From Silvimonas iriomotensis (GTDB lineage Bacteria > Pseudomonadota > Gammaproteobacteria > Burkholderiales > Chitinibacteraceae): a DNA stretch of 64,000 bases. Position 1 is the first letter of the stretch. Each line of letters opens with the position of its first letter. A program made the position numbers and the translations under genes. The DNA is taken from assembly GCF_014645535.1 (NCBI RefSeq), contig NZ_BMLX01000003.1:248001-312000 (forward strand). The letters are read 5' to 3'. Below the pieces are notes generated by a model. That model was not told the DNA's origin and did no database searches. It saw only the letters and a program-made list of their open reading frames with translations. This document shows positions 11,890 through 63,049 of the stretch, in pieces.

Positions 11890-12106
11890 TTTTTTCTCCT
11901 AGTGTACGCGGGGCGTATATTAAGGGAGTGGGGTGGGGGATGTCGAGGGAGGGGGGATGAGTGGATTGAGGGGAAAGCAAAAGCTTTGTTAGTGCCTGAC
12001 GGCACGGAGGTTTGATTGCCGGTGGTGACCGGGGCACTGTAGTGGATTGCCAGAGGGATGTGGGTGGGGTGGATTTGGAGTGGTGGCGATAATCCACCTG
12101 CTGCTG
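11890..12106. other. Gap upstream of pyrB, no gene seen
   Basis: About 217 bases holding the pyrB ribosome site (AGGAG at about 11896-11900) and presumably its promoter. G-rich tracts occur, but I see no coding frame with proper signals. Confidence 0.4.
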
Positions 12107-12180
12107 TCTTTAAAGCTTTTAACTGCTGTTAGCGCCTGGCGGCGCGGGTGTTTTGGATGTCGGGGGTTGCCCGACGGCAA

Positions 12181-12214
12181 GGCACTTTCTTTTGGGTCGC
12201 CAAAAGAAAGTGCC
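12181..12214 (+). other. 15-bp perfect hairpin of repeat copy A
   Basis: Arms 12181-12195 and 12200-12214 (GGCACTTTCTTTTGG and its exact complement) with loop GTCG. The foot of the stem differs from the other two copies, but each difference is matched on the opposite arm. Confidence 0.85.
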
Positions 12215-12390
12215 CAAAGAAAAGGCGACCCCTGCGACGGCGCCCTTCGGGTTCCCTGTGCTTCTCGCAAGGCGCGGCTGGCTACGGGAACTCGCTTCGC
12301 TCAGACACCCCTCCGCCGAAACCCCGCGCCTTGCTGCGATGCTCGGCGCAGTCAAAGGGGATGGCAGGTCAAAAGCAACTGCAACCCCGA

Positions 12391-12535
<145 letters not shown>

Positions 12536-12696
12536 GACCGTGCAAACCGTCCGTTCGCAAGAATGGTGGGTTTAGCCCACCACTCCGTCATTCCCGCGCA
12601 GGCAGGATTCCAGTCCGCAGCCCAATGGGCTGCCTTCGGTGGATTACCGCCGCTGCCTCGCATTTATCCTTCGATACGTGCAAGCATTGCAACTGG

Positions 12697-12716
12697 ATTC
12701 CGGCCTTCGCCGGAAT
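12697..12716. repeat. dRS3-like 20-bp inverted repeat
   Basis: Core ATTCCGGC CTTC GCCGGAAT, flanked by TGG and GAC. It has the ATTCC...GGAAT form and 20-base length of Neisseria dRS3 repeats. Related copies lie at 12590, 13071, 62619 and 63050. Confidence 0.8.
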
Positions 12717-12744
12717 GACGAGTCAGTGCGGGTGCGTGTTGAAT

Positions 12745-12777
<33 letters not shown>

Positions 12778-12933
12778 ATTTTGGTTTCGGGTTGCAGTTG
12801 GTTTTGGGGGTGCCGTTGTTTTTGACTTTCCTCCCCCATTAAAGCCCAGCGCCGAAGGAGGGAGGGAGACCTTAGGCTCCCGAGTGAGAGAGGGCAGCCC
12901 GGAGGGCCGCCAGGCTGGGGTCGCCTTTCTTTG

Positions 12934-12965
12934 CCTACTTTCTTTGGCGAAGCAAAGAAAGTAGG
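12934..12965 (-). other. 13-bp perfect hairpin of repeat copy C
   Basis: Arms 12934-12946 and 12953-12965; on the minus strand CCTACTTTCTTTG, loop CTTCGC, then the exact complement. Confidence 0.85.
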
Positions 12966-13070
12966 GTGCTCCGGCCACCGCCGGTATGTAAAACACCGCG
13001 CCGCAGGCGCTAACAGCGGTTAAAGGTTTTCAGCTCCGGCCCCAAAGGCCACCTGCGGCGGCCAGACTGG

Positions 13071-13090
13071 ATTCCTGCCTCCGCAGGAAT
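13071..13090. repeat. dRS3-like 20-bp inverted repeat
   Basis: Core ATTCCTGC CTCC GCAGGAAT, a perfect 8-bp inverted repeat, flanked by TGG and GACG. Confidence 0.8.
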
Positions 13091-13161
13091 GACGAACTAG
13101 TCGCGGCAGCCAGGTTCAAATCCGCGCCACCGCGCAAAAATAGTTTGCTGCCCACGCCCCC

Positions 13162-13221: not shown

Positions 13222-16200
13222 TCACTCCCCCGCCGCCGGCGCCAGCACCGTCCGGTTGCCATTACTCTCCATGGCACTCACCAGCCCCGCATTCTCCATC
13301 TGCTCAATCAACCGGGCCGCCCGGTTGTAGCCAATGCGCAGTTGTCGCTGCACAGACGAGATCGAAGCGCGGCGGCTTTTCAGGACAAACGACACCGCTT
13401 CGTCATACAGCGGGTCGCTTTCCTCGCCACCGGCCTCGGCCCACGGTGCGCCGCTGCTGCCGGCGGCGGCTTCGGCATCAAGGCCGCCGTTGAGGATGCC
13501 TTCGACGTAGTCCGGTTCGCCGGTGGTCTTGAGGTATTCGACCACGCGGTGGACTTCGTCATCGGCCACAAAGGCGCCGTGCACGCGTTGCGGGTAGCCG
13601 GTGCCGGGCGGCAGGAACAGCATGTCGCCCTGGCCCAGCAGGGCTTCGGCGCCCATCTGGTCCAGGATGGTCCGGCTGTCGATCTTGGACGAGACCTGGA
13701 ACGCAACGCGCGTGGGGATGTTGGCCTTGATCAGGCCGGTGATCACGTCCACGCTGGGGCGCTGGGTGGCCAGGATCAAATGGATGCCGGCGGCGCGGGC
13801 TTTCTGGGCCAGGCGGGCGATCAGTTCTTCGATCTTCTTGCCGGCCACCATCATCAGGTCGGCAAATTCATCGACCACCACCACCACGAACGGCAGGTGC
13901 GTGAGCGGTTCGGGGTTGTCCGGGGTCAGGCTGAACGGGTTGCTGAGCGGCTTGCCGGCCTTTTCGGCTTCTTTCACTTTCTGGTTGAAGCCGGCCAGGT
14001 TGCGCACGCCCATGGCGCTCATCAGGCGGTAGCGTTTTTCCATCTCCGCCACACACCAGTTGAGCGCGTTGGCGGCCAGTTTCATGTCGGTGACCACCGG
14101 GGCCAGCAGGTGCGGAATGCCGTCGTAGACGGAGAGTTCCAGCATCTTGGGGTCGACCATGATGAAGCGCACTTCATCGGGCGTGGCCTTGTACAGCAAG
14201 GACAGGATCATGGCGTTCACGCCGACCGACTTGCCCGAACCCGTGGTGCCGGCCACCAGCATGTGCGGCGCTTTGGCCAGATCAGTGACGATGGGCTTGC
14301 CGGTGATGTCCTTGCCCAGCGCCATGGTCAGCCTGGAGCTTTGGGTGTGGAATGCCTCGGAACTGAGGATCTCACTCAGCCGGATCATCTGCCGCGTCGG
14401 GTTGGGCAGTTCCAGACCCATGCAGGTCTTGCCGGGGATGGTTTCCACCACGCGGATCGACACCAGGCCCAGCGCGCGCGCCAGGTCTTTCATCAGGTTC
14501 ACAACCTGGGCGCCGCGCACGCCAACGGCGGGTTCGACTTCATAACGCGTAATGACCGGGCCGGCGAAGGCATCAAGCACGCTGACCTTCACCTTGAATT
14601 CGGCCAGTTTCTCTTCAATCACAATACCGCGATCAATCAACTCGTCCTGGCTGATCGGGTCTATGGCCTGGGCGGGCGGCAGCAGCAGGTCCAGCGATGG
14701 CAAACAGCTTTCGTCATACAGCGGGCGCGGCGGCGGTACTGGCGCGGGGGCCGGGCGGTTGATCAGGTCGGTGGCCCAGGCGGAGGGCTGATAGTCGCCG
14801 CTGGCGGCCAGTTCTGCGGCCACACTGGCGGCCGGGCTTTGCCAGGCCGGGGCGGGCGGCTGCAGCGGGACGGCAGCAGGCGGCAGCAGTTCCGGCTCAA
14901 TGGCGAGTGCTGCTTCTTGCGCTTCGTCCTCATCAGCGTCTTCCCATGGCATGGGTTGCCAGCGCATGGGCGTAAAGGCAGGGGCGGCGGGTTCGGTTGC
15001 GGGTGGTGCAACGGCGACTACAGCGAGCTCGATAGCCGGGCTGGCCACGACGGGCGCGACAGGCGTGACCACGGGTGCGACAACCACCGGGGCCACGACA
15101 GGGGCTGCCGGGTGTTCAGCCGTAGTCTCTTCAATAGCCGGCAGCGGTACGTCCTGAATCGCGGGCCAGATGGCTTGTGCCGGTGCGGGGGCTTGGGCGA
15201 TAACGGGTGCCGGGGCTTCAACCGCGGCGGCGGGCGCTTGCCATACCGGCATCTCCGGCAGCACCAGTTCTGGCGCAACCGGGTGGGCGTCCGGCGCTTG
15301 CAGCGGGCGCTGCCAGAACGGGCGCGGTGCCATCGGGGCTGGCTCAACGGCCGGCGGCGGCGTAATTGCTTGCGCGGGTACGGGCTCGGGCGGTGCGGTA
15401 TAGCTTTGCGCGGTGCGAATGGTGCGGCCGCTTTGGTAGCGCGGTGCCGGGGTGGCCTCGGCCTCGGCCAGGGTTTCTGGCACCACAGACTCTGCCGCGA
15501 CCACCGGCATCGGCACCGGTGCCAGCGGCGCGGGTTCCTCGGCCGGGGTTACTGTTGCGGAACGCTGAACCGGGCGGCGTGCGCTGATAAATACGGCGTC
15601 ATCGGCATTGCTGACAGTACGGCTGCTGCGCACCACGATCGGCGCCGGCGTGCTGGCCGCTTTGGTGCCGTCTTGTGCAGTCTGGTCAAGCTGACGGGCA
15701 TGTTGGGTTGCGATACGTTGGGTATCGCGATGGCCATGCATGGATTGCAGCCGGGCGCGGATTTCGTTGGCGTCGATACGCGGCAGATCGGCTTGCGGTG
15801 CCGGCGCCGGGCGCGGCGCGGGCTGGCGCGACAAATAGCGGGGCGGTTGCAGCACTTGCTCGCGGCCCAGGACCGGCAGCGGCTTGGGCGCTGGCGCGGG
15901 TGCAGCGCGCGGGAAGGATTTATCCAGCGTGATCACCGGCAACGGCGAACCGGCAGGGACGGTATTGACGGATGCAGCGGGGCGACGAGTGTCGAGCTTT
16001 TCTGCAGCACGCGTCAGGGCGGCCTGATGCGCCTCGTACGCCGGGTCAAATGCCGGCTCGGGGAGGTCTTCAAGCTGCGGGCTGGCCTCGATGCCGGGCT
16101 CTGCGCTGTGTTCGAACTCAGGCGCCGGTTCTGACCAGGTGCGGGTGAACCAGGAACGCAGGTTGACTGCAGGTGCAGCGGCCGCCGGGGCAGGGGCAGG

Positions 16201-62749: not shown

Positions 62750-62783
62750 GTTACTTTCTTTTGCTTCGCCAAAAGAAAGTAAC
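62750..62783 (+). other. 14-bp perfect hairpin of repeat copy B
   Basis: Arms 62750-62763 (GTTACTTTCTTTTG) and 62770-62783, loop CTTCGC. Confidence 0.85.
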
Positions 62784-63049
62784 CAAAGAAAAGGCGACCC
62801 CTGCGACGGCGCTCGCTGCGCGAGTTCCCTGTGCTTCTCGCAAGTCGCGGCTGGCTCGCGTGTTCGGCCTGCGGCCTACCGCTTCGCCTTGATCGCCGCG
62901 CCTTGCTGCGATGCTCGGCGCAGTCAAAGGGGGCTCAACGTCAAAAGCAACCCCAACCCCAACCCCAACCCCAACCCCGAAAATCAACGACAACGGCACC
63001 CAGGGTTCATCCGTATGCAAGAATGACGCCCTTGCCTCACCACCTCGGC

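Follow-up and report, generated by a model that had tools for sequence, protein, structure and literature searches.

What is kept when a palindrome changes its letters while its arms go on pairing? Silvimonas iriomotensis raises this question with three copies (A, B and C) of a hairpin in a 64,000-nt stretch of contig NZ_BMLX01000003.1 (positions 248,001 to 312,000; hereafter the window). The hairpin is beyond chance, its 15-nt arms being 100% complementary and 4 nt apart, and the original prediction held that structure rather than sequence is kept, either as a functional RNA fold or as a cruciform recognised by a protein such as a transposase. The changes that it cited are all present: the feet read GGCAC/GTGCC in A, GTTAC/GTAAC in B and CCTAC/GTAGG in C, and one T-A pair is missing from both arms of copy C. 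We propose that the hairpin is part of an H-type triple-helix pseudoknot at the 3' side of an RNA unit of about 230 nt and that this RNA is what selection keeps, a reading to which we give a probability of about two in three. The features concerned are the following (window positions):

12128 to 12360, minus strand: copy A, left unit in full (about 230 nt), with the 5' RNA domain
within 12128 to 12360, minus strand: copy A, 5' domain of the RNA, closed by helices of the type CCCC-UU-GACUGCGCC / GGCGCAGUC-GCA-GGGG
12128 to 12148, minus strand: copy A, outer hairpin TGTTAGCGCCTGGCGGCGCGG, close to where the repeat ends
12159 to 12180, minus strand: copy A, adjoining second hairpin or pseudoknot beside the foot (GTCGG/CCGAC; TTGC/GCAA), a pairing read by eye, its co-variation across genera being seen rather than formally counted
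12181 to 12214, minus strand (the RNA-sense strand): copy A, long pseudoknot helix, made of the foot GGCA/TGCC and the arm CTTTCTTTTG/CAAAAGAAAG
12195 to 12200, minus strand: copy A, hairpin loop, forming the second pseudoknot helix with 12225 to 12230
12216 to 12223, minus strand: copy A, third strand, running parallel to the purine arm AAAAGAAA and reading AAAGAAAA on the plus strand and UUUUCUUU in RNA sense
12225 to 12230, minus strand: copy A, loop partner, GCGACC on the plus strand
12921 to 12925, plus strand: copy C, TCGCC, pairing with the loop GGCGA at 12947 to 12951
12926 to 12932, plus strand: copy C, third strand TTTCTTT, parallel to the purine arm AAAGAAA
12934 to 12965, plus strand (the RNA-sense strand): copy C, inverted right unit of type III, shorter by one T-A pair
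62750 to 62783, minus strand: copy B, long helix, type I, foot GTTA/TAAC
62785 to 62792, minus strand: copy B, third strand AAAGAAAA, which is UUUUCUUU in RNA sense
62793 to 62797, minus strand: copy B, GGCGA, pairing with the loop TCGCC
11931 to 13159, no strand: segment around the A-C pair, absent in two congeners, where the spacer is about 65 and 115 bp; its edges, and with them the place of any target-site duplication, are approximate, as the spacers have diverged

On the RNA strand of all three copies the adjoining hairpin comes next after the long helix; on the other strand the next feature is a purine tract. The A-C element also holds or touches other sequences. Just left of copy A (11984 to 12040), a degenerate outer end, TTTGTTAGTGCCTGACGGCACGG...GATTGCCGGTGGTGACCGGGGCAC, marks a remnant unit without the long helix. 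Inverted repeats CGTCATTCC...GGAATCCAGT, which we take to be of a kind found in many proteobacteria, are nested in and beside the element (12584 to 12614, 12692 to 12720 and 13066 to 13095), and CAACGG minisatellite tracts occur inside it together with their inverse (12390 to 12530 and 12738 to 12780); similar minisatellite-like tracts are seen in the consensus of the copies from this genome. The gene right of copy C (13240 to 14600) has a 96%-identical second copy (G000:C2:491042-492388) that also adjoins a repeat element, and in one congener (G041) both copies of the gene are present without repeat elements.

The host genome (4.59 Mb in 15 contigs, 99.97%-complete) carries a whole family of such hairpins. 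The exact palindrome was matched 58 times against 0 for a reversed-pattern control, a looser pattern gave 51 + 52 matches, and the genome stretches around the copies, when searched by the 3' flank with the 5' arm left free, contained at least 90 copies. Their four-pair foot takes many forms, among them GTTA/TAAC, CCTA/TAGG, GGTA/TACC, GTGC/GCAC and GGCA/TGCC, and further GACA/TGTC, GTCA/TGAC, GGAC/GTCC, CTTA/TAAG and GTTC/GAAC. Pairing of the foot is perfect in 80/90 copies, the other 10 feet having a mismatch. Unpaired changes in the stem are thus present in 10/90 feet, which partly fulfils what the original prediction named as its undoing (such changes with no significant covariation), but covariation is strong nonetheless. 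A longer loop, with a CACCTCGGCGGCCC-like insertion, is found in five copies, and in two of these the arms are unequal:

C1:190799, C2:187471, C3:320661, C4:201723 and C6:46838: own-genome copies with the longer loop

The loop of the hairpin does not stay unpaired. In this genome TCGCC pairs with GGCGA just past the neighbouring purine tract, while elsewhere the same positions read TGTC/GACA, TGCC/GGCA, CGGC/GCCG, TATC/GATA, TGGC/GCCA and others. From 305 distinct copies found by their flank pattern, 280 were scored after 25 without a clear short-loop hairpin had been dropped, and the three variable loop/flank pairs are standard in 273/280, 272/280 and 258/280 of them. This makes 803/840 cells, against a mean of 542 and a maximum of 579 in shuffles; slid registers give at most 79/280, one position excepted at 165. 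Covariation was also scored on 141 distinct 49-nt copies (set A1, into which only 10-nt arms with a 6-nt loop were taken). Over both helices, 96.3% of the 2538 cells are paired, compared with 46.6-54.4% in slid registers; 380 cells have changed on both sides, the shuffled mean being 109, and the covariation score of 0.408 compares with 0.114 for shuffles and 0.059-0.102 for slid registers. Since the loop pairs outside the hairpin, with covariation, the hairpin is well supported by the aligned copies as the long helix of an H-type pseudoknot. The idea that structure and not sequence is kept is supported across copies. So is that of a functional RNA fold, but the hairpin supplies just one helix of a pseudoknot that also has a third strand and is itself set within the larger unit.

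The third strand became apparent from the arm types of the host genome, each of which, a few odd copies excepted, comes with a mirror-image flank: AAAAGAAA with AAAGAAAA, AAAGAAAA with AAAAGAAA, and AAAGAAA with AAAGAAA. Seen from the opposite strand, this flank becomes a pyrimidine tract that runs parallel to the purine arm, with U over A-U and C over G-C. At the family level, where 8/43 genomes had a match, no mixed combination of arm and flank occurs among the matches listed. A tally of the two middle positions in the 280 copies gives third U over A in 202/205 cases, third C over G in 273/277 and third G over U in 11/12; over C, the third base is C in 16 and U in 4 of 20. One genus (14/85 genomes searched) contributed 43 rows with a pyrimidine in the arm by hand count, with third G over T-A in 21/22 and, over C-G, third C in 18/21 and T in 3/21; the G.TA case is also found in another family (L419). 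The rule seen places U over A-U, C over G-C and G over U-A, while C-G takes C or U; it is the pyrimidine-motif triplex code, which is reportedly due to Griffin and Dervan and to Yoon and colleagues. Antiparallel pairing of the third tract with the arm was considered and dropped, as it accounts for 139/282 informative cells by Watson-Crick or wobble pairs and for 27/282 by the code, whereas a parallel triplex read by the code fits 277/282. Covariation shows, at the level of sequence, both the pseudoknot and a third strand that runs parallel to the purine strand and agrees with it at each base; the groove contacts of this strand are predicted from the same pattern.

Could such matched changes arise with no selection on structure at all? 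Block gene conversion combined with template switching between the arms would produce them, and the copies do recombine: in L258 a type II arm strand faces a type I arm strand, as expected of a recombinant, and the foot varies by blocks. Template switching, however, yields complementary or direct copies and not a third tract that mirrors the arm, the loop pairing changes independently, and new arm types (AAGAGAAA, AAATGAAA, AAACGAAA, AAAATAAA and all-A) carry a matching third strand in several families. On a FastTree tree of 266 copies, built with arm, foot and flank left out, the type I/II arm state switches 44 times, although whole-block exchange between copies could carry all three strands together at such switches. 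Supported branches provide 17 independent pairs, and the third strand follows the arm in 17 of them in nearly all pairings; among 200 random pairings a few have 16 matched and one unchanged, the opposite direction never occurs, and the median p is 1.5e-5. Because the earlier search patterns fixed most of the tract, a covariance model without coupling between arm and third strand was built from A1 and run on 369 genomes. From the matches listed, 40 stretches (20 + 20) were taken, of which 38 had a scorable copy (L418 and L438 were dropped) and 32 were distinct. In these, 256/256 cells fit the code, compared with 54-66% in slid registers and a shuffle maximum of 230 of 256, and they include the new arms AAGAGAAA with TTCTCTTT and AAAATAAA with TTTTGTTT. 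Misfits do occur (9/1128 triplex cells in A1; one, T over G, in a further L435 copy outside the 256-cell count), and the match of arm and third strand is broken in L235 and L332. We regard homogenisation as a very improbable source of the pattern.

Which of the two strands is the one that folds? On the strand as read, the 129 non-Watson-Crick cells of the foot comprise 69 C.A or A.C against 9 G.T or T.G; the reverse strand, on which these mismatches become G.U or G.T, therefore appears to fold. The polarity is weaker in A1 (48 G.U against 24 A.C), partly owing to bulged arms. Single-stranded folding thus appears to involve one strand, the reverse for A and B and the plus strand for C, a polarity not expected of a symmetric DNA cruciform, the other structure originally envisaged. 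RNA and single-stranded DNA of the same strand fit it equally, because G.T also pairs in DNA. Conserved motifs and predicted helices extend the unit on the RNA 5' side. With the long helix of the pseudoknot counted, compensatory changes are found in 14/47 predicted pairs of the host-genome copies (36 of 49 used) and in 13/29 of Comamonadaceae-type copies (28 of 30 used). We regard RNA as the more likely of the two.

The family is widespread. At E 0.01 the model matches 89/369 of the genomes sampled from the class, the host genome among them; the E-values behind this count are rough, and the matches were read in part. A scan for repeats of the same type gave at least 119 stretches, and Silvimonas terrae and S. 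amylolytica are among the named records. Outside the class, the core pseudoknot is found at six places in the fusobacterial megaplasmid pILYOP01 of Ilyobacter polytropus (L450, 2998-3044), in AT-rich surroundings, with a changed but paired loop (TGCC with GGCA) and a third strand that exceeds the arm by one nt. This was the one record of the plasmid search; a relaxed search gave 10 records, mostly weak. The phage and E. coli collections searched contained no match, and among 14 viral-contig stretches the hairpin is present in three (L340, L342 and L346), the others looking like A-rich chance matches.

Units occur singly, in tandem, or as inverted pairs with inward flanks, mostly 0.3-0.9 kb apart. 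At the A-C site about 1.2 kb is missing in two congeners (G040 and G041), and at a second site about 1.6 kb is missing in G041; these are the two loci examined, a third congener (G042) being uninformative. With terminal inverted repeats, no transposase inside, and presence or absence between relatives at these two loci, the element is MITE-like. The best reading is that inverted pairs bound a dispersed, non-autonomous, non-coding element of which the structured RNA is a part.

What might move such an element? The original prediction pointed to a REP-associated tyrosine transposase, an idea that fails for this genome: it has 0 matches to Y1_Tnp (PF01797), while the same search was positive in 5/14 control genomes. 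Short palindromes in many intergenic copies do recall a REP/BIME-type element moved by such an enzyme. Besides the absent gene, the unit is far larger, and the copies read by eye have no unpaired GTAG head 5' of the palindrome; GTAG occurs in them only inside the paired CCTA/TAGG foot, and the foot is paired and varies. We consider this origin practically untenable. A TnpB-guided element was likewise dropped, as PF07282 gave 0 matches in the genome with 6/14 controls positive. The sole reverse transcriptase (PF00078) of the genome is the defence enzyme Drt2 (L349 1108-2403 on contig C4; NF041746, 537 bits), which was judged unrelated, and retro-mobilisation of the repeat through this enzyme was discarded. 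So was a derivation from a group II intron, the window having no Rfam match and the genome no PF00078 match other than Drt2. Nor was a mobility gene recognised beside the copies among ORFs of at least 110 aa at 119 loci, for which the top 14 clusters were considered and members of a few of them checked. The largest cluster (38 loci) overlaps the repeat itself, and the checked members of other clusters are histidine kinases, an ABC transporter, a Sel1/kinase and a TctC protein. Three of eight ORFs tested beside copies lack a Pfam match, and the spurious ORFs in the repeat match no NCBIfam family and give one weak, sub-threshold Pfam match.

The arrangement along the chromosome bears on whether the folded molecule is RNA or DNA. 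The positive-skew strand carries the type I/II copies in 46/51 cases, a count that omits one copy on contig C5 and reads contig signs from the skew, C4 and C7 being mixed, and in 18/22 cases in a congener; for type III the figures are 2/21 with a CCT foot and 10/17 otherwise. On contig C1 (G000, 536940-1221943), the 685 kb flanking the skew switch, the probable terminus, contain 0/90 copies where 13.4 are expected, in a region picked after the gap was seen. In congener G041 the 22 type I/II copies span 0.42 to 4.14 Mb of a 4.51-Mb contig, and in G038 all 12 copies among the matches listed fall in a region of about 0.8 Mb that surrounds the other skew switch. Neighbouring genes, as called by a simple gene finder, are codirectional with type I/II copies in 16 cases, opposite in 20, convergent in 13 and divergent in 3; because 16 stand against 20, the strand bias is not due to the neighbouring genes.

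All this would suit an alternative in which the same strand folds as single-stranded DNA, into a cruciform or an H-DNA-like pseudoknot with a DNA triplex, and is recognised in transposition, in recombination or at the replication fork. The skew bias that does not follow the neighbouring gene strand, the empty 685 kb, and the inverted pairs with their empty sites speak for a DNA element, and the four-triplet code is best known from DNA. By the skew, however, the folding strand would be the leading-strand template and not the lagging-strand template that is exposed as a single strand, the large extra domain contains RNA-type helices that covary, and a Y1 transposase is absent from the genome. 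We view folding as DNA as a serious contender, though an improbable one.

A further reading sees each copy acting in cis on the stability, processing or termination of neighbouring transcripts, like REP or Correia elements in the 3' regions of mRNAs. It draws on the placement of the copies, 88/90 of which are intergenic, with 22 convergent and 6 divergent gene pairs among the 90 (simple gene finder), so that divergent pairs are avoided. The units nevertheless face either way relative to codirectional neighbours, as the 16 and 20 above indicate, and the folding strand of inverted pairs reads outward, so that inbound genes transcribe the non-folding strand of the nearer unit. The folding strand lies antisense to a dapF-DUF484 operon in Pasteurella, and no T-run of the kind required of an intrinsic terminator directly follows the helix in copies A, B or C. 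An action in cis is in our view distinctly unlikely.

Under the favoured reading of an RNA unit kept by selection, the transcript would begin with the 5' domain and the first strand of the short helix (UCGCC), the first strand of the long helix coming later. The second strand of the short helix (GGCGA, the old loop), the second strand of the long helix, the second hairpin or pseudoknot and the outer hairpin would then follow. Selection would keep the RNA of the unit, in which the triple-helix pseudoknot could serve as a stable 3' module that proteins recognise; through it, a hypothetical trans-acting partner might bind, protect or mobilise the element. Any function of the repeat RNA is putative. 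A bolder version is tentative and has, we think, clearly less than even odds: the repeat would be a widespread RNA family with the full four-letter triplex code, carried on self-spreading elements that are oriented with the fork and avoid the terminus, and the RNA itself would be the agent of mobility or recognition.

RNA triple helices usually come to light when a structure is solved. In this repeat three strands co-vary across many genera, so that third-strand rules, including those for the two 'wrong-way' base pairs, can be read from natural sequences and tested directly; in this sense the repeat offers a natural case in which to test the encoding of triple helices. It is also a structured-RNA repeat in 89/369 genomes of the class with no match in Rfam 15, and its link to replication direction is so far unexplained.

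The repeat RNA family is apparently undescribed. Rfam 15 gave 0 matches above the gathering score in the window, relaxed searches gave 6 and 1 sub-threshold matches (best E 0.45, for RsmW in L259, and 0.81), and searches of open-access literature listed no paper whose title and abstract describe the repeat or its third-strand covariation. The RsmW-like match (29.7 bits, gathering score 52) lies beside a repeat copy in Methylomonas (L259 6136-6271).

Several known systems nevertheless share features with it. The Omega-RNA or reRNA of TnpB/IscB is structured, contains a pseudoknot and is read outward across the end of a mobile element. The repeat RNA resembles it in being structured, pseudoknotted and outward-reading, but differs in that the genome has no PF07282 gene and no mobility gene was recognised beside the copies. 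With Correia (CREE/NEMIS) and REP/ERIC-type families it shares many intergenic, palindromic, non-coding copies of MITE-like character. The main text of one survey (PMC2267715) contains 0 occurrences of 'pseudoknot', 'Ralstonia', 'Xanthomonas' or 'Chromobacterium'. While those families often fold into a stem-loop, the repeat is a covarying pseudoknot with a third strand.

Closer in fold are the telomerase RNA pseudoknot and MALAT1/ENE, in which a U-rich strand forms U.A-U triples together with C.G-C in a pseudoknot or stem. By covariation the repeat has both kinds of triple, but it is bacterial and present in many copies, and its third strand also covaries as G over U-A and as either C or U over C-G. 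The SAM-II riboswitch is an H-type pseudoknot with a major-groove triple helix, and the fold of SAM-V (PMC6061858) has the strand order of the repeat fold. Both riboswitches share with the repeat an H-type pseudoknot with a triple helix, known in the repeat from covariation. Unlike them, the repeat has 7-8 regular triples with a base code and no conserved ligand pocket, and instead of residing in a 5' UTR it is dispersed, intergenic and part of a larger RNA.
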